The notes under the pieces were generated by a model. That model did no database searches. It was not told the DNA's origin and saw only the letters and a list, made by a program, of their open reading frames with translations. Position numbers and translations under genes: made by a program. Shown here piece by piece: positions 20,281 to 35,062 of a stretch of 41,991 bases of DNA (positions are counted from its first letter, which is position 1; each line of letters opens with the position of its first letter). This stretch comes from an uncultured Bacteroidales bacterium (lineage in GTDB: Bacteria > Bacteroidota > Bacteroidia > Bacteroidales > WCHB1-69), in NCBI GenBank assembly GCA_905233745.1, contig CAJODA010000011.1, forward strand, positions 1-41,991. Direction: 5' to 3'.

Positions 20281-20288
20281 TATGTTTG
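20281..20288 (+). promoter_or_regulatory. -7 box TATGTTTG upstream of the M16 peptidase
   Basis: TAnnTTTG match on the plus strand. Confidence 0.5.
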
Positions 20289-20323
20289 CAGCCGTAAAAA
20301 AAAAAACTAATATTTTTAATATT

Positions 20324-23239
20324 ATGAAACGTAACGTTATCTCCGCGCTACTGATGGTGGTCCTCTGCCTCCTGACCTTCAGCACCAATGCGCAAAACTA
20401 CAACAAGGAGACCTATCAGAACGACCCCATGAACGTCATCCATTATACGCTGGACAACGGTCTTCAAGTCTTTCTATCCGTAAACAAGGATGAACCACGC
20501 ATCCAGACCTACATTGCCGTGCGTGTGGGCAGTAAGAACGACCCTGCTGAATCAACAGGTCTCTCTCACTACCTCGAGCACCTGATGTTCAAGGGCACGA
20601 AAAACTTCGGCACCCTGGACTGGGCAAAGGAAGAGGAGCATCTCAAGAAAATTGAGTCACTCTATGAGGTATATAACCATACCACAGACCCTGCCAAGCG
20701 CAAAGCCATCTATCATCAGATCGACTCTGTTTCTTACGAGGCATCCAAATATGCCATTCCGAACGAATACGACAAGATGATGTCCATGATCGGTGCGCAA
20801 GGAACCAACGCCTTCACCTCCAACGACATGACGGTTTATCAAGAAGACATTCCTAACAATGAGTTGGAACGCTGGCTCATGATTGAGAGCGAACGTTTCG
20901 CCAATCCTGTATTCCGTTTGTTCCACACTGAGTTGGAGGCCGTTTATGAGGAGAAGAACATGAACATGGCCAACGATTCCCGCACCGCATACGAGAAGAT
21001 GAACGAGGCTCTATTCCCCAACCATCCGTATGGCACCCAAACCACCATCGGAACCATTGAGCACTTGAAAAACCCGTCCCTGAAGAACATCATCAAGCAC
21101 TTCAACACTTACTATGTGCCGAACAACTACTGTATTACTATGGCTGGCGACTTCGACCCCGATCAAGCCATCAAGCTTATCGACAAATATTTCGGAAAGA
21201 TACAACCGAAATACATTCCTGACTTCACCTACGTGAAAGAGAAACCCATCCGCGAAGTGAAGGTGGTGGAAGTGTATGGTCTGGAGCCCGAAAACGTGCA
21301 AATCGGATACCGCATCGATGCGGGTACCGGTTCCCGCGATGTGCTTCTCGCCGAGATGGCAGATGCCGTGCTGATGAACGGTTCCTGCGGTATCATTGAT
21401 GAAAACATCAACCAAAAGCAGCTGGCACTGTCCGCATACTCCGGCGTGAGCGACCTTAACGACTACGCATACTTCCGCCTCAGCGGAAGACCCAAAGAGG
21501 GACAAACCCTTGAGCAACTGAAAGACCTGCTGCTGCAACAAATCGAGATTCTGAAGTCCGGAAACTGGGACGCCGATCTTCTCACCGCCGCTATCAACAA
21601 CCGCAAACTGAGCGATATGACCTCCCTCGAAAGCAACGTGAACCGCGGCATGGCAATGGCTTTCGCCTACCTCTCCCACCGGAGCTGGCAGGATGTGATC
21701 AACGAGACTGAGAACATGAGCTATGTGACCAAAGAGGATGTTATCGATTTTGCAAACCGCACCTTCAAGAACAACAACTATGCAATCGTCTATAAACGTC
21801 AAGGCGAGCAACGCGATGTGCAGAAAGTTGACAAACCCGAGATCACGCCTGTGGTTATGAACCGTGACGTGGAGAGCGCATTCCTCAAAGAGATAAAGAA
21901 CATCAAAGTGAACCCCATCGAGCCCGTATTCGTGGATTTCAACAAAGATATGAAGAAAGGCACGTCCAATGGCAACGAAGTTCTTTACGTGGAGAACACC
22001 GACAACGGCCGCTTCCAGCTGGTTTATCGCTACAACTACGGTTCATTCTATGACAAGAAGGCCGGTATCACCAACTCTTTCCTCGACCAGCTTGAGAGTG
22101 AAAACCGGACACTTAGCCAAATAAACCGTGAGATGTATGATCTCGCCTGCAGTTTCAGTATCGGCTTCGGCTCCAAATACGCCACGGTCAGAATTTCCGG
22201 TTTGAGTGAGAACATGGTGAAGGCCATGGCCATCGTGGAGGACATTCTCAATCACCCCAAGATTTCCGAGGAATCCGTCCAAAACTCCATCGCTGACGTA
22301 CTGAAAAACCGCGCAGATAGCAAGTCCCGCCAGCAAACCATCTTCCAACGGATGCTGAGCTACGTATCCTACGGCAAAGACAACGTACGCAAATATTTCG
22401 TCAGCAACGAAGAGGTTCAAAAAATCAAAGCGCAGGATGTCATCAACCAGATCAAGACCATGACTTCCCAACCGCAACGCATCTTATATTATGGTGACAT
22501 GAACTTCACTGATTTCATGAAAATGATCACCAACACGGAAAATCACAGTGTACATCAGGCCAAGAAACCTGCCAAGATGGGTCCCGACTACGACCGTCTG
22601 GCCACAAAAGAGAACAAGGTCTATTTCGCACACTACGATGCCAAGCAGTCTTTGTGCCGCCAACTCACCACCTCCATTCCCGCCAACTGGGTCCTCAGTC
22701 CGCAAATCGAAATGTACAACGAATACTTTGGCGGCAGCATGAACTCCATCGTCTTCCAAGAAATCCGCGAGAAACGCTCATTGGCATATTCTGCCGCAGC
22801 TTACTATGTGGAGCCCAGTGAAAAAGGCAAGATGAATTTCAACATGACACACATCGGCACACAGAACGACAAGCTGATTGACGCCATGGAAGCCTTTAAC
22901 GACTTGTTGGACAACATGCCCGTATCAGACCTCAACTTTGATCTGGCCAAGACATCCCTGATTTCCAATTACCGTACCGCCCGCACACGCAAGATGGGCA
23001 TCATCAACCATTATCTTGCTTGTGAAGAAATGGGATTGAAAAACTCTCCCGACAAAACCAACTATGCTGCCATCCAGAAGCTGACCATCAATGATGTGGT
23101 GAACTTCAACAAGTCATACATCAAGAATCAGAAACGTGTAGTCGTCGTTCTCGGCAACAAGGATGAAGTCGATTTGAAGGGTCTGGAAAAATACGGTAAA
23201 GTGACGACGCTTTCCTTAGAGGAAATCTTCGGATACTAA
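20324..23239 (+). CDS. M16-family zinc metallopeptidase (insulinase-like), secreted
   Basis: Signal peptide MKRNVISALLMVVLCLLTFSTNAQ; HYLEHLMFKGT (HxxEH) with downstream EAVYEEKNM; tandem M16 halves. Confidence 0.9.
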   Translation: MKRNVISALLMVVLCLLTFSTNAQNYNKETYQNDPMNVIHYTLDNGLQVFLSVNKDEPRIQTYIAVRVGSKNDPAESTGLSHYLEHLMFKGTKNFGTLDWAKEEEHLKKIESLYEVYNHTTDPAKRKAIYHQIDSVSYEASKYAIPNEYDKMMSMIGAQGTNAFTSNDMTVYQEDIPNNELERWLMIESERFANPVFRLFHTELEAVYEEKNMNMANDSRTAYEKMNEALFPNHPYGTQTTIGTIEHLKNPSLKNIIKHFNTYYVPNNYCITMAGDFDPDQAIKLIDKYFGKIQPKYIPDFTYVKEKPIREVKVVEVYGLEPENVQIGYRIDAGTGSRDVLLAEMADAVLMNGSCGIIDENINQKQLALSAYSGVSDLNDYAYFRLSGRPKEGQTLEQLKDLLLQQIEILKSGNWDADLLTAAINNRKLSDMTSLESNVNRGMAMAFAYLSHRSWQDVINETENMSYVTKEDVIDFANRTFKNNNYAIVYKRQGEQRDVQKVDKPEITPVVMNRDVESAFLKEIKNIKVNPIEPVFVDFNKDMKKGTSNGNEVLYVENTDNGRFQLVYRYNYGSFYDKKAGITNSFLDQLESENRTLSQINREMYDLACSFSIGFGSKYATVRISGLSENMVKAMAIVEDILNHPKISEESVQNSIADVLKNRADSKSRQQTIFQRMLSYVSYGKDNVRKYFVSNEEVQKIKAQDVINQIKTMTSQPQRILYYGDMNFTDFMKMITNTENHSVHQAKKPAKMGPDYDRLATKENKVYFAHYDAKQSLCRQLTTSIPANWVLSPQIEMYNEYFGGSMNSIVFQEIREKRSLAYSAAAYYVEPSEKGKMNFNMTHIGTQNDKLIDAMEAFNDLLDNMPVSDLNFDLAKTSLISNYRTARTRKMGIINHYLACEEMGLKNSPDKTNYAAIQKLTINDVVNFNKSYIKNQKRVVVVLGNKDEVDLKGLEKYGKVTTLSLEEIFGY

Positions 23240-23253
23240 AAGCCGTAAATCAA

Positions 23254-24660
23254 CTACGCTCCGAATGAGGAGCCGTCGAAACAGTGGGTGCACAGTCGCT
23301 CCTTCGGCAAACCGATAGCCTTGGCTATCGTTTCCAAACGGTTGAACTTCAACGTGTCGACCCCCAGATGTTTCCGAATAACCTCCACCAAATTCGCGTA
23401 CTCTTTGGTAGAGTCATCGCAATAGAGGTGGAGGTTTTTTGTGCTACTCCCCTCCAACTCCTCAATTGCGCGACGCGTAATCAATTCCATCTCCGTCTTG
23501 GATGCGGAGAAATTGAGGAAATTACAGCCGTATGTCAGAGGCGGACAGCTGATGCGGATATGAACCTCCTTGGCGCCATAACTGTATAGTTTCTTCACAT
23601 TGTCGCGCAACTGCGTGCCGCGCACGATAGAATCATCACAGAAAACGATGCGCTGACCCTTGAGAATCGTCGTGTTGGGCAACAACTTCATACGAGCCAC
23701 ATGCTCACGAGTATCTTGATTCACCGGCATGAAACTCCTTGACCAAGTGGGCGTGTATTTCACAATGCCCCTCTTGTAAGGAATCTTCTTACCCATGGCA
23801 TAACCCAACGCCATGCCAATGCCTGAATCCGGAATAGCCGATACCATGTCTGCCTCTATGTCATCACTGCTGCCCATCTCATACCCATACATGTAACGCG
23901 CGTTCTCCACATTCACCCCCTCATACTCAGAAGTCGGATAACCGTAATAAATCCACAGGAAAGAACAGATCTGCATTTGGGAATTAGGCTCTAGCAACGA
24001 CTCAATACCAGCCGTGGTGATCTTCACCACTTCGCCAGGACCCACAAATCTCTCTATGGTATAATCCAGATTGGCGAAACTGTGGCAATCGAAAGCCAAC
24101 GCATAGCTTCCTTCTTTACGGCCCACAACAATGGGTGTTCGTCCGTAATAGTCCCGGGCGGCAATAATGCCCTCATCCGTCAGAATCAGCATGGAACATG
24201 AGCCCTTCACATTTTTGTACACATTCCGAATTCCATCCACAAAATCCTTGCCTTGGGTAATCATTAGCGCAATCAGTTCCGTGGGATTGGTGCTTCCCGA
24301 ACTCAACTCGGTGAACTGCTGGTTCTTGTTCAAACAATCCTTCTCCAACTCTGCCAGATTGTTTATTTTAGCCACGGTTACTATCGCAAAGCGTCCCAAA
24401 TGGGAATTCACCACAATGGGTTGCGCATCCGTATCACTGATCACTCCAATGCCAAGGTTTCCCTTAAACTTAGAAAGGTCATCACTGAACTTGGTACGGA
24501 AATAGGAGTTCTCAATATTGTGTATGGAACGATGAAATGTATTGTGCTCTATAGTCACCATACCTCCGCGCTTTGTGCCGAGATGGGAATGATAGTCAAT
24601 ACCGTAAAACAAATCAGGATTGCAGGGTCCGTTGGACACCACGCCAAAAAAACCACCCAT
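23254..24660 (-). CDS. Amidophosphoribosyltransferase (PurF)-like protein with degenerate glutaminase domain
   Basis: PRPP loop VFCDDSIVRGTQ; PurF-like QICSFLWIYYGYPTSEYEGVNVENAR and C-terminal LCTHCFDGSSFGA; N-terminus MGGFFGV lacks the Cys nucleophile. Confidence 0.85.
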   Translation of the reverse strand: MGGFFGVVSNGPCNPDLFYGIDYHSHLGTKRGGMVTIEHNTFHRSIHNIENSYFRTKFSDDLSKFKGNLGIGVISDTDAQPIVVNSHLGRFAIVTVAKINNLAELEKDCLNKNQQFTELSSGSTNPTELIALMITQGKDFVDGIRNVYKNVKGSCSMLILTDEGIIAARDYYGRTPIVVGRKEGSYALAFDCHSFANLDYTIERFVGPGEVVKITTAGIESLLEPNSQMQICSFLWIYYGYPTSEYEGVNVENARYMYGYEMGSSDDIEADMVSAIPDSGIGMALGYAMGKKIPYKRGIVKYTPTWSRSFMPVNQDTREHVARMKLLPNTTILKGQRIVFCDDSIVRGTQLRDNVKKLYSYGAKEVHIRISCPPLTYGCNFLNFSASKTEMELITRRAIEELEGSSTKNLHLYCDDSTKEYANLVEVIRKHLGVDTLKFNRLETIAKAIGLPKERLCTHCFDGSSFGA

Positions 24661-24957: not shown

Positions 24958-27291
24958 ATGAAACCTCTGTCAGAGCGTTTAGGTCGCGAAGTAATGATTT
25001 TTGACGGTGCCTTTGGCACCGAATTGGAAAAGCGAGGCATTCTCGCCAAAACCCCGGAATTGCTGAACATCACGCACAAGGAACAAATTGCAGAAATACA
25101 CAAAAGCTACATTGATGCCGGGTGCGACTTTATCACCACCAACACCTTCGGGGCGAACAGGATCAAGATGCCTGATGAGGACCGCCGGCAAGTCATTGAG
25201 AGTGCCATCGGGCTGGCCAAGCGCCACCGCACCACACAATATGTGATGTGCGATATCGGACCGCTGGGCAAGATGCTCTACCCCATGGGCGAACTTTCGT
25301 TTGATGATGCCTACGAAGCCTTTCGTGAAATTGTGATCACAGCTCGCGATTTAGTGGACGGATTCATTTTGGAGACTTTCACAGACCTGTACGAACTGAA
25401 GTGTGCCCTACTGGCTGTGAAGGAAAACTGCGACAAACCTGTATTTACCACCATGACTTTCGATCAAACGGGACACACACTTACTGGAACGTCGCCCCGC
25501 ATCATGGCCGAGCTCATGTCAAACATGGGAGCAGATGCCATCGGCGTGAACTGTTCCCTCGGCCCCAAAGACCTCCGTCCCATTGTGCAGGAGTTTTTGC
25601 AGTACTGCGACAAACCCGTCATGGTGCAACCCAACCGTGGCATTCCGGAATTGCGATGCGGAAGGGCCCTATACAGTCTCTCTACCGGCGAATTCGCTAG
25701 CGTGATGGAGGAGTTTTGCGATGCCGGAGTGGCCATTTTAGGAGGTTGCTGCGGCACCAATCCCGAATTCATCAGCGCCATTTCCGTGCACAAAGGCAAG
25801 TCTATACCGCCACGGTCGAATAACCGCCTCACCACTGTCACCTCCGCCACGAGGGCTGTCACCTTCGACAAGGTGCAGGTTTGCGGCGAACGCATCAATC
25901 CCACCGGCAAGAAAAAACTCAAAGAAGCCATCCTCAATGGTGACTTTGACTACATCTTCAAAGAGGCTATCAAGCAGGAGGAGGCTGGCGCCGCACTTCT
26001 GGATGTGAATCTCGGCGTACCTAAAACCGACGATGTCACCAACATGAAAAATGTGGTGGTCAAATTGAACGAAATCACCAATATGCCGCTGCAAATCGAC
26101 TCTTCCAACCCCAAAGCTATCGAGGTTGGATGTAGATATTACAACGGTGTACCGCTCATAAACTCTGTAAATGGAAATGCCGAAAGCATGGAGGCTATTT
26201 TCCCGATTGCGCAAAAATACGGGGCTGTTGTTCTGGGACTGACCATGGACGACAATGGAATCCCGCAGAGCGCAGAAGAGCGCTTTGCCATTGCAGAGCG
26301 CATCCTGCAGGGTGCCGAACGGCACGGCATTGCCCGCCATCGGATGATGATGGACACACTCACCCTCACATGCAGTGCACAACAGGCCCTCGTGAAGGAG
26401 ACGCTCCGCGCCCTGCGCATGGTGACCGACCGCCTCGGATTGGCAACTGCCCTCGGCGTCTCCAATGTAAGCTTCGGAATGCCCAACCGAGAAGCCATCA
26501 ACAGCACATTCCTGGCCATGGCCTTGGAAAACGGACTTACCATGCCCATCATCAATCCATGCAATGCCATGATGATTAATACCGTGCTGGCCTTCAACGC
26601 CCTTCGCGGCGACAACTCCGACCTGGACAATTTCGTCAACCACGCGGTTGCGCAAGAGACACCTGCATCTGCCTCAACCTCGCCCTCCATGACCCTCGGG
26701 GAGGCCGTGCGCCGTGGACTTAAGGAAGACAGCATCCGTCTTACACAAGAGGCTCTTCAGCGTCAGAACCCCATGACCGTCATCAACGACATCCTCATCC
26801 CTACCTTAAATGAAGTCGGCGTGGATTTTGAAAAACAAAAAATATTCCTGCCCCAACTCATCTCTGCGGCTGAAGCCTGCAAGGAGGCCTTTGATGTCAT
26901 CAAGACACAATTCTCCCAGGGCGCTGCACAAAAGGGATTGGTTGTATTGGCCACAGTTAAAGGTGATGTGCACGACATCGGCAAGAATATCGTAAAAGTG
27001 ATTTTTGAATCCTACGGATATAAGGTGCTCGATTTAGGCAAGGACACCGATAAAGAGGTGATTCTAGAGGCCTATCGCAAACACCATCCTCTCATTATCG
27101 GTCTCAGTGCCCTTATGACCACCACTGTGCTCTCCATGGAGGAGACCATCAACTATCTGAAAGAAAACGGTGTGCAATGTCCAATCTTTGTCGGTGGTGC
27201 CGTGCTCAACCGCCAACTGGCACAGGAAATCAAAGCCGACTACTACACCAAAGATGCTCTTGAATTTGTTGAAACTGTCGGACAACTATAA
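24958..27291 (+). CDS. metH: Cobalamin-dependent methionine synthase, short form lacking the reactivation domain
   Basis: Hcy-binding zinc motifs GVNCSLGP and GGCCGT; pterin-binding VCGERINPTGKKKLKEA; B12-binding VKGDVHDIGKNIV; ends after the B12 domain at 777 aa. Confidence 0.93.
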   Translation: MKPLSERLGREVMIFDGAFGTELEKRGILAKTPELLNITHKEQIAEIHKSYIDAGCDFITTNTFGANRIKMPDEDRRQVIESAIGLAKRHRTTQYVMCDIGPLGKMLYPMGELSFDDAYEAFREIVITARDLVDGFILETFTDLYELKCALLAVKENCDKPVFTTMTFDQTGHTLTGTSPRIMAELMSNMGADAIGVNCSLGPKDLRPIVQEFLQYCDKPVMVQPNRGIPELRCGRALYSLSTGEFASVMEEFCDAGVAILGGCCGTNPEFISAISVHKGKSIPPRSNNRLTTVTSATRAVTFDKVQVCGERINPTGKKKLKEAILNGDFDYIFKEAIKQEEAGAALLDVNLGVPKTDDVTNMKNVVVKLNEITNMPLQIDSSNPKAIEVGCRYYNGVPLINSVNGNAESMEAIFPIAQKYGAVVLGLTMDDNGIPQSAEERFAIAERILQGAERHGIARHRMMMDTLTLTCSAQQALVKETLRALRMVTDRLGLATALGVSNVSFGMPNREAINSTFLAMALENGLTMPIINPCNAMMINTVLAFNALRGDNSDLDNFVNHAVAQETPASASTSPSMTLGEAVRRGLKEDSIRLTQEALQRQNPMTVINDILIPTLNEVGVDFEKQKIFLPQLISAAEACKEAFDVIKTQFSQGAAQKGLVVLATVKGDVHDIGKNIVKVIFESYGYKVLDLGKDTDKEVILEAYRKHHPLIIGLSALMTTTVLSMEETINYLKENGVQCPIFVGGAVLNRQLAQEIKADYYTKDALEFVETVGQL

Positions 27292-32605: not shown

Positions 32606-35062
32606 ATGAGTAAGAATATTTCCGCCCTTTTTATTGTTATTTTATTATCATTCAGCAATTTCGCACTTTCGCAAACCGAGTCTCCCTATATGGATTTCAA
32701 TCCGGAAAGTCTCAAGGAAAATGCGAGTTTTGCCAAGAATTTCTCACCTAACAACTACGACAGCAAGGTTTTGTACAATTGTATGTCGGCGGTATTGGAC
32801 GCCGCCCGCGCGCAATATCGCTTCCTGCCGGCGCTGAAACACAATGAAGACATGGACTCCACCGCACAGTTCCAGGCAGACTTCATGGCCTCCAAAGACG
32901 AGAAGACGGAGGACAATTACGCTCCCTATAAAACCTTGGAGTACCGCCTCCGCAAGTACGGGCTGTCGGGCAACGGCTACGAACTGGTGACCAAAGTGAA
33001 GGCTTACCTTGGCGAGCAGGAGTACTCCTACTACGACCTCTGCCTTGCCGCCGTGCAAACACTGCTTAAGAACAACAAACTGGCGGATGTCTTGCTTGAC
33101 AGACAATACAGCTATATGGGACTGGGTATGAACACTGACGTTCAGATGAAAAACATGTACATCTCCCTGGTTCTTGGAAACCACCGCACGTTCAACCCGT
33201 ACAAACCTGCCTACGGAACCAAAGACCTGCCCTACTCCAAAGGTATGTCCGGGCTGAAAAGCTATGACGAAAAAATCTGTAAGAAATGCACTTCAGAACC
33301 CGCACTTGAAGTGTTGTCCGAATATGTCAGCCTTAACAAGAAAGGCGAAGTTTACATCACTTGTGATGACTACAAGCAACTTAAGAAACTCATCGGCAAA
33401 GACGGAGACGCCATCGCCATTGACTTTGTGCAACGGAGCCAGTACGAATGCGGCAAGTTCAACATCGACTACGACCATGCCAACCGCGGATTTGTCACCA
33501 AACCCATCACTTTCGAAACCATCCTCGACAAAAACGAGAACCATAACCTCAAAACCGGCAAGCTCATCGCCAAAATCGCCGACCTTCCGGATCAGGTGGA
33601 CATGAACAAGGAGCTCGACCTCCACATATTGGTCCTGAAAGATGGCAACCGTGTGTGCCGTACCATCATCGCCAAGAACATTGAAACGAAAAACGCAAAC
33701 TATGACGAGAAAATCAACTATTTGAAAGATGAAAAGAGCGTGAAAAGCGCCGGCGAATGGGTCATCACACCCGAAGAGAGCACTTTCAGTGTCACCTTCC
33801 CTTACGAATTAAAGAAAACCGACTATACCACAGTCGCTTTCGACTCCGCGCTAAAAAGCATGGACGTTCCCCAATATGAAATAAACAAGATTGAAATCAT
33901 CGCCCATAATTCTCCCAACTATTACAAAGACGCCAACTATCAGAAAATCCAAACCAAACGCGCCGAATTTCTGAAAAAGGACATGCTGGCCAAGTCTCCC
34001 GGCGCTGACATCACCATCAATTACGATTTCTGCTGGGAGGATTTCAAAAAGAGCATTGTGAATAATGGCGAGTACTATGACCTGAGCTTCCTTTCTCTTG
34101 ATGAAGCCGCCCGTCAGCTCCGTGGCGACAGTTGGGCACTGAAAGCCCTCGACAGCGGCTGGCTTGCCCCGTGCCGTTACTACGAAATCAAGTATTATGT
34201 CACCTACACCGCTTCCACCAAGGAACAGGAACAAGCCTATGCTACCTGGAAGTTCAACCAGGCCGTCAAGAACAAAAACAGAGGCCTGGCCATGTCCATC
34301 GAAAACTACCTCATCGACAAAATCGAAAAGGGTGAGTACAGCAGTTCGGTCATGGACAACCTCGACATTCCAAACAACAAAGATTATCAAACTCTTCTCA
34401 ACAACCGACTTTATGTACAATATCTAAAGGCACCCAAGCTGACCGAAAAGATTGCAAATGACATGAAGAACGTGTACAACCTGAACACCACCAATCAGAT
34501 GCTGCTGTTCAACACGACCATCGGTGACGTGTTCTTGGGCAAAATCGGTTCAGCTGCCGACATCGCCAAAACGCAGGCCGCCATCGACCGCCTCTATGCT
34601 GTGCCAGGTGTGCCCAAAGACCGCGTGAACAGCCTCAACATGGAATTCCAACTCAAAGTGGTGAACTACCTGGACACCGCCGCGCCGAATATGGAGAACA
34701 CCGCCCTGCTGGCCGCCACATTCGACAAAATCAAAGAGATTCGCAACCCCGTGCTCGACAGCTGGCAGAACGCCTACAAGTTGGCTTCCTATTTTGTGAA
34801 GAAATATGATTATGCTTATGCCCTCTCTTTAATGGATCCTTTCCTTGATGACTCAAAAATTTCGGAAGACTTCATCATGTCCTATGTCTCCATTGCCTCA
34901 TACCGCGCAGAATCTTACTTGAGCCCCCTCTTCTCCAAAGCTGTGAAAATCGCCTACGAGAAGAATCCGGGACGTTTATGCAACCTCTTTGACAAAATCC
35001 CCTATTGCGTGATGGAGAATGAAGATGTGAAGGCCATTTTGTGCAAGAATTGCGACAGATAA
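32606..35062 (+). CDS. Large secreted protein, possible CAP/SCP-like N-terminal domain and OmpA-like segment
   Basis: Signal peptide MSKNISALFIVILLSFSNFALSQ; AARAQYRFLPALKHNEDMDSTAQFQADFMAS ... LADVLLDRQYSYMGLGM resembles CAP; IEIIAHNSPNYYKDANYQKIQTKRAEFLK resembles OmpA. Confidence 0.5.
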   Translation: MSKNISALFIVILLSFSNFALSQTESPYMDFNPESLKENASFAKNFSPNNYDSKVLYNCMSAVLDAARAQYRFLPALKHNEDMDSTAQFQADFMASKDEKTEDNYAPYKTLEYRLRKYGLSGNGYELVTKVKAYLGEQEYSYYDLCLAAVQTLLKNNKLADVLLDRQYSYMGLGMNTDVQMKNMYISLVLGNHRTFNPYKPAYGTKDLPYSKGMSGLKSYDEKICKKCTSEPALEVLSEYVSLNKKGEVYITCDDYKQLKKLIGKDGDAIAIDFVQRSQYECGKFNIDYDHANRGFVTKPITFETILDKNENHNLKTGKLIAKIADLPDQVDMNKELDLHILVLKDGNRVCRTIIAKNIETKNANYDEKINYLKDEKSVKSAGEWVITPEESTFSVTFPYELKKTDYTTVAFDSALKSMDVPQYEINKIEIIAHNSPNYYKDANYQKIQTKRAEFLKKDMLAKSPGADITINYDFCWEDFKKSIVNNGEYYDLSFLSLDEAARQLRGDSWALKALDSGWLAPCRYYEIKYYVTYTASTKEQEQAYATWKFNQAVKNKNRGLAMSIENYLIDKIEKGEYSSSVMDNLDIPNNKDYQTLLNNRLYVQYLKAPKLTEKIANDMKNVYNLNTTNQMLLFNTTIGDVFLGKIGSAADIAKTQAAIDRLYAVPGVPKDRVNSLNMEFQLKVVNYLDTAAPNMENTALLAATFDKIKEIRNPVLDSWQNAYKLASYFVKKYDYAYALSLMDPFLDDSKISEDFIMSYVSIASYRAESYLSPLFSKAVKIAYEKNPGRLCNLFDKIPYCVMENEDVKAILCKNCDR

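Follow-up and report, generated by a model that had tools for sequence, protein, structure and literature searches.

A family of PurF homologues in Bacteroidales without glutaminase catalytic residues is a candidate ammonia-dependent enzyme of purine synthesis

PurF2 and its closest described relatives

PurF, at which purine synthesis is controlled, is the textbook example of a glutamine amidotransferase. In E. coli, PurF whose N-terminal Cys has been replaced still uses ammonia (reviewed in PMC3261824), and a PurF paralogue of Crenarchaeota, PurF′, was proposed to be an ammonia-dependent PRPP aminotransferase, a proposal that was left for experiment (Brown et al., 2011; PMC3261824). Here we describe a Cys-less PurF family of Bacteroidales, for which we coined the label PurF2 and of which we found no description in the open-access literature. 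Crenarchaeal PurF′ resembles PurF2 in being a PurF paralogue that lacks the Cys and clusters with purine genes. However, each crenarchaeon also has a Cys-bearing PurF (PMC3261824), whereas PurF2 is often the sole PurF of its Bacteroidales host, and deletion of the glutamine loop has been shown for the Bacteroidales family only.

The window, by which we mean the whole 41,991-nucleotide stretch of DNA that was analysed, comes from a gut or rumen Bacteroidales and encodes purF2 as an ORF of 468 aa with an ATG start and the N-terminus MGGFFGV. Its features are as follows.

23254..24660, minus strand: purF2, PurF-like protein of 468 aa (TIGR01134 201.6 bits; 1AO0/1GPH top by sequence and fold)
23986..24657, minus strand: degenerate class II glutaminase-like domain (Ntn fold), residues ~2-225 (column counts in 90 orthologues; GATase_7 35 bits)
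23257..23985, minus strand: phosphoribosyltransferase (PRTase) domain, residues ~226-468, with PurF active-site motifs (invariant K301, R308, Q315, R318, K325, D342-T349 and P277-D278-S279)
23719..23760, minus strand: flexible loop KYTPTWSRSFMPVN, residues 301-314, altered relative to canonical KNRYVGRTF (alignment; pLDDT <50 at 304-311)
23611..23637, minus strand: PRPP loop DDSIVRGTQ, residues 342-350 (D342-T349 and Q350 in 90/90)
23278..23967, minus strand: span with the four Fe-S ligand cysteines C232, C379, C457 and C460 (90/90, aligned to B. subtilis C236/C382/C437/C440)

The best NCBIfam match of PurF2 is TIGR01134 (purF), at a score below the curated cut-off (201.6 bits against 350), and the canonical long Bacteroidota PurF also scores below this cut-off. 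Pfam GATase_7 matches the glutaminase-like half with 35 bits, and the nearest PDB entry by sequence is B. subtilis PurF, 1AO0 (E=3.6e-51). An AlphaFold2 model of PurF2, built from a 29-sequence alignment (pLDDT 86.2, pTM 0.86; residues 304-311 of the flexible loop below 50), has the full-length PurF fold, and a Foldseek search with it returned 1AO0 first (TM 0.81, rmsd 3.5), followed by PurF of plants and of E. coli. In a maximum-likelihood tree, all PurF2 sequences fell into one clade (100/100), whose stem is long (2.79 changes per site); it grouped with the PurFs of Bacillus type and the short canonical PurFs of Bacteroidales, with a weak exact attachment (85/68), and the long Bacteroidota PurF stood apart from it. 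By these relationships, PurF2 is a monophyletic group of Bacteroidales proteins related to PurF of the Bacillus type. With the Bacillus-type enzyme (1AO0, 1GPH; EC 2.4.2.14), PurF2 shares the fold (TM ~0.81), the PRPP loop, the four Fe-S ligand cysteines and a similar length, but it has no N-terminal Cys or propeptide, its glutamine loop is deleted, its oxyanion and Asp127 positions are changed, its flexible loop reads KYTPTW, and GTQ stands in place of GTT.

The original prediction had raised the question of a second, canonical purF, and one is present in the window's genome (2.39 Mb, completeness 100): a long PurF (P0002, MEQLKHECGVAM...) encoded on contig C42 after pyrG. P0002 is, like PurF2, a PurF homologue with a DDSIVRGT loop. 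Unlike PurF2, it has 584 aa, bears MEQLKHE before its catalytic Cys, does not conserve the Fe-S ligand set and belongs to a separate clade. The PRTase of P0002 (L002:1393-3147) is itself unusual: its pyrophosphate loop reads PNTA in place of PDSS, and its flexible loop lacks equivalents of Q339, R342 and K349 of E. coli. Even so, most of the sampled Bacteroidales have no PurF other than this long type. Between the long PurFs of the window's genome and of G128, a member of another family, identity is 80%. The pyrG-purF pair is found in the window's genome (L002 / L121), whereas in the close relatives G008 and G219 (L122, L123) pyrG has no adjoining purF, a difference for which cassette transfer, loss of purF in the relatives and a misbinned contig are all possible explanations.

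Loss of the glutaminase site and retention of the phosphoribosyltransferase site

To compare residues across the family, we clustered 99 purF2 loci into 90 distinct orthologues and aligned these with the PurFs of E. coli and B. subtilis (the latter taken from the sequence-match alignment), the long PurF of the window's genome and short canonical PurFs. The absence of an N-terminal Cys, as first predicted for this PurF-like protein, was borne out by all 89 orthologues with a complete N-terminus, which begin with MG or MS: position 2, corresponding to E. coli C1, is Gly in 74, Ser in 15 and Cys in none. A start further upstream that might supply a Cys had been raised as an alternative and was looked for. 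The stop-to-stop frame of purF2 comprises 475 codons, and the ~7 codons that precede the ATG hold neither an in-frame start nor a Cys, so no alternative start can give PurF2 a nucleophile.

The remainder of the glutamine site has also been lost. Relative to E. coli, C1 is replaced by G2 in the window's PurF2, N101 by V96, G102 by A97 and D127 by P126, and the R73-Y74 loop is deleted. Across the family, N101 is V in 90/90, G102 is A, G, S or C (mostly A), and D127 is P, Q or S, in agreement with the altered oxyanion and D127 regions noted at the outset. The Arg region had been described as substituted; its loss stands, but the word was too mild, as the alignment reveals an 8-residue deletion of the glutamine loop, from R73-Y74 to S80, in 90/90. 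Neither the N-terminal catalytic Cys nor the glutamine site of PurF (R73 loop, N101/G102, D127) is present in PurF2, and the catalytic residues of the glutaminase half have been lost family-wide through several independent changes. Cys13, which is invariant in the family, was considered as a hidden nucleophile exposed by processing and rejected: it aligns with E. coli V12, it lies after the first strand of the model (E3-9), and the glutamine loop is gone. Mean pairwise identity among PurF2 sequences is 66% and 69% for the two halves, and both are under strong purifying selection (dN ~0.04-0.11, dS near or at saturation), indicating that the dead glutaminase domain is maintained.

In the PRTase half, the PRPP loop and flexible-loop catalytic residues of PurF are all present in 90/90 PurF2 sequences. 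These include DDSIVRGT, the loop that had been reported as intact, and K301, R308, Q315, R318 and K325 (E. coli K326, R332, Q339, R342 and K349, respectively). Y238, at the position of E. coli Y258, is also found in 90/90, and 53 of the 131 PRTase core columns are invariant across PurF2. All four ligand cysteines of Bacillus-type Fe-S PurF (C232, C379, C457 and C460) occur in 90/90, so that the predicted retention of the ligands holds and the fourth ligand position is now explicit. Other residues are conserved and specific to PurF2, namely KYTPTW in the flexible loop, the invariant Q350 where canonical PurF has T, C13 and C372, together with the nearly invariant C341. Two of these features, Q350 where Thr is usual and the altered flexible loop, could affect how the PRTase works.

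Gene neighbourhoods and distribution of PurF2

In 31 loci, mainly of Barnesiella, Coprobacter and Muribaculaceae-like genomes, purL lies directly upstream of purF2 on the same strand with gaps of 1-151 bp, and the identity of this PurL was confirmed (1501 bits). The genes that usually follow purL-purF2 are etfB, etfA and an acyl-CoA dehydrogenase gene (read by eye, with the Etf beta homologue confirmed). In another lineage purF2 lies 18 bp after carB, and in a third group a purC-like gene is found three genes downstream of purF2. No purine gene adjoins purF2 in the window's own genus, and in the window it lies between a gene for a pitrilysin-like peptidase (20282-23239) and metH (24958-27291, plus strand). 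Two loci titled Lachnospiraceae (L096) and Pseudoflavonifractor (L104) carry the Bacteroidales purL-purF2-etf arrangement, and their organism labels are probably wrong. The MetH of the window (777 aa) has homocysteine, pterin and two B12 domains and no C-terminal reactivation domain; its match to TIGR02082 stops at position 847 of 1182. An 818-aa ORF of the window (32606-35062, plus strand) matched nothing but a CAP domain, and that weakly (E 0.003, short of the Pfam cut-off).

We surveyed ~247 Bacteroidales genomes, each at least 90% complete and most of them metagenome bins, and found PurF2 in 84. All but a few fragments were at least 54% identical to PurF2, a level well separated from the ~33% or less of canonical PurF, and the orthologues include those of the isolates Coprobacter secundus 177 and Paramuribaculum intestinale DSM 100749. 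When 393 genomes spread evenly over the phylum were sampled, G351 (57%) was the only one outside Bacteroidales with identity above 50%. Canonical PurF was sought in the ~247 genomes with the long PurF P0002 and the classes were combined by hand, giving 65 genomes with both proteins (including those whose canonical PurF is of the short type), 157 with canonical PurF only, 19 with PurF2 only and 6 with neither. Canonical PurF is thus missing from 19/84 PurF2-positive but only 6/163 PurF2-negative genomes (Fisher p=7e-6, from hand-combined counts and uncorrected for relatedness).

The PurF2-only genomes (G025, G040, G101, G118, G125, G129, G136, G140, G142, G154, G190, G203, G210, G212, G219, G248, G263, G267 and G272) span several genera and are up to 100% complete. 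We ran TIGR01134 on 17 of the 19 (all but G248 and G267) and on five same-genus genomes (G002, G004, G013, G018 and G023); besides PurF2, it found GlmS-like and AsnB-like matches only in these 22 genomes, and the five are likewise PurF2-only. Four other glutaminase-type ORFs in G101, G190 and G129, inspected as possible hidden PurFs, were AsnB-like (asparagine synthetases). Each of the three genomes sampled from f78, and likewise each of the three from f95, is PurF2-only at 99-100% completeness, a recurrence which argues that the state is no random assembly gap.

Every PurF2-only genome tested has purD (sought in all but G248 and G267), purM-type genes, purH and purL, and PurF2 is the sole step-1 gene beside the remaining purine pathway in the 19 sampled genomes and the five same-genus ones. 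Among genomes with neither PurF, G067 and G241 lack purD, purH and purL and gave only weak purM-like matches, which is the pattern expected of purine auxotrophs. In G056, G238 and G246 neither PurF was found although all three gave signals for purH, purM and purL, and purD was present in G056 and G238, the two of these in which it was sought; either the absence calls carry some error or another route exists. Taken as a gauge of absence-call error, these three amount to ~1% of the sample, and the 19 PurF2-only genomes are far above that level. Since PurF2 and canonical PurF each occur alone with the pathway retained, either one is probably enough for purine step 1.

The function of PurF2 and alternative explanations

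We propose, at a probability of about two in three, that PurF2 is an ammonia-dependent PRPP aminotransferase, using PRPP and free NH3, and no glutamine, to carry out step 1 of the purine pathway. With the glutamine chemistry gone from PurF2, free ammonia is the simplest donor, and ammonia dependence is now the best supported of the three options of the original prediction because PurF2 is the sole PurF in the 19 (plus five) genomes that keep the pathway. Under this proposal, PurF2 would be catalytically active, would probably contain an Fe-S cluster, and would make the first purine intermediate, 5-phosphoribosylamine, with free NH3 as its nitrogen donor; the NH3 may travel to the PRTase site either through the empty glutaminase domain or around it. 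Where a genome encodes both enzymes, as the window's does, a more speculative division of labour is that PurF2 might work under ammonia plenty and the glutamine-dependent PurF under ammonia scarcity. Prevotella ruminicola, a relative from the rumen, is documented to use ammonia for growth (PMC5552732).

PurF2 might instead be a synthetase subunit fed in a transient complex by a separate glutaminase, whether the PurL domain, CarA or a dedicated partner. The presence of purL, with its own glutaminase domain, immediately upstream in 31 loci and of carB upstream in another lineage are both consistent with this arrangement, but many lineages, the window's genus among them, have no purL linkage, and we consider it unlikely. 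We recognised no free-standing glutaminase among the recurrent neighbours of purF2, most of which were identified by eye, and PurF-like matches of 156 and 163 codons in G128 and G064, which were candidates for such a partner, are pieces of disrupted glmS genes. The external glutaminase that had been suggested therefore did not appear as a dedicated gene beside purF2, while a donor encoded separately could still fill that role.

The occurrence of both proteins in 65 sampled genomes, including the window's, would fit a regulatory pseudoenzyme or a hetero-oligomer partner of canonical PurF. We regard this as quite improbable, as the PRTase catalytic residues are invariant and as 19 pathway-keeping genomes have PurF2 only and 157 canonical PurF only. 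An obligate heteromer was rejected because each protein occurs alone, and the existence of pathway-keeping genomes with PurF2 as sole PurF makes a purely regulatory role, which had been one of the initial options, unlikely, as it does an obligate partnership with canonical PurF. It is more doubtful still that PurF2 is a different PRTase that transfers ribose-5-phosphate onto another nucleophile, with phosphoribosylamine arising otherwise (through side reactions, or from ribose-5-phosphate and ammonia). Conserved changes that are peculiar to the family and lie close to the active site (Q350, KYTPTW, C341 and C372) and the long stem branch (2.79 changes per site) would be compatible with such a change in activity, but purF2 is linked to purL, and canonical PurF is missing mainly where PurF2 is present. 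Finally, although most genomes are bins and three have the pathway but neither PurF, we regard an artefact of a wrong start codon or of canonical PurF missed through incomplete bins as very unlikely, given the lack of an upstream Cys or start, the agreement of 90 orthologues that include isolates, and the PurF2-only state of every sampled member of f78 and f95 (three of each, 99-100% complete).

The reading of PurF2 as an ammonia-dependent aminotransferase has a wider form, to which we give slightly better than even odds: that a widespread gut and rumen order has several times independently dropped its glutamine-dependent PurF, with a dedicated ammonia-using enzyme running the committed first step and its glutaminase domain retained solely as a scaffold or channel. 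If PurF2 does work without glutamine as the sole PurF of some gut and rumen bacteria, the open archaeal hypothesis (PMC3261824) would become directly testable in a bacterium, and metabolic reconstructions that assume a glutamine-dependent first purine step would change. Purine synthesis in these organisms would be tied to environmental ammonia, and the PurF2 family would offer a natural experiment on the role of the ammonia channel and the Ntn domain once glutamine chemistry is gone.
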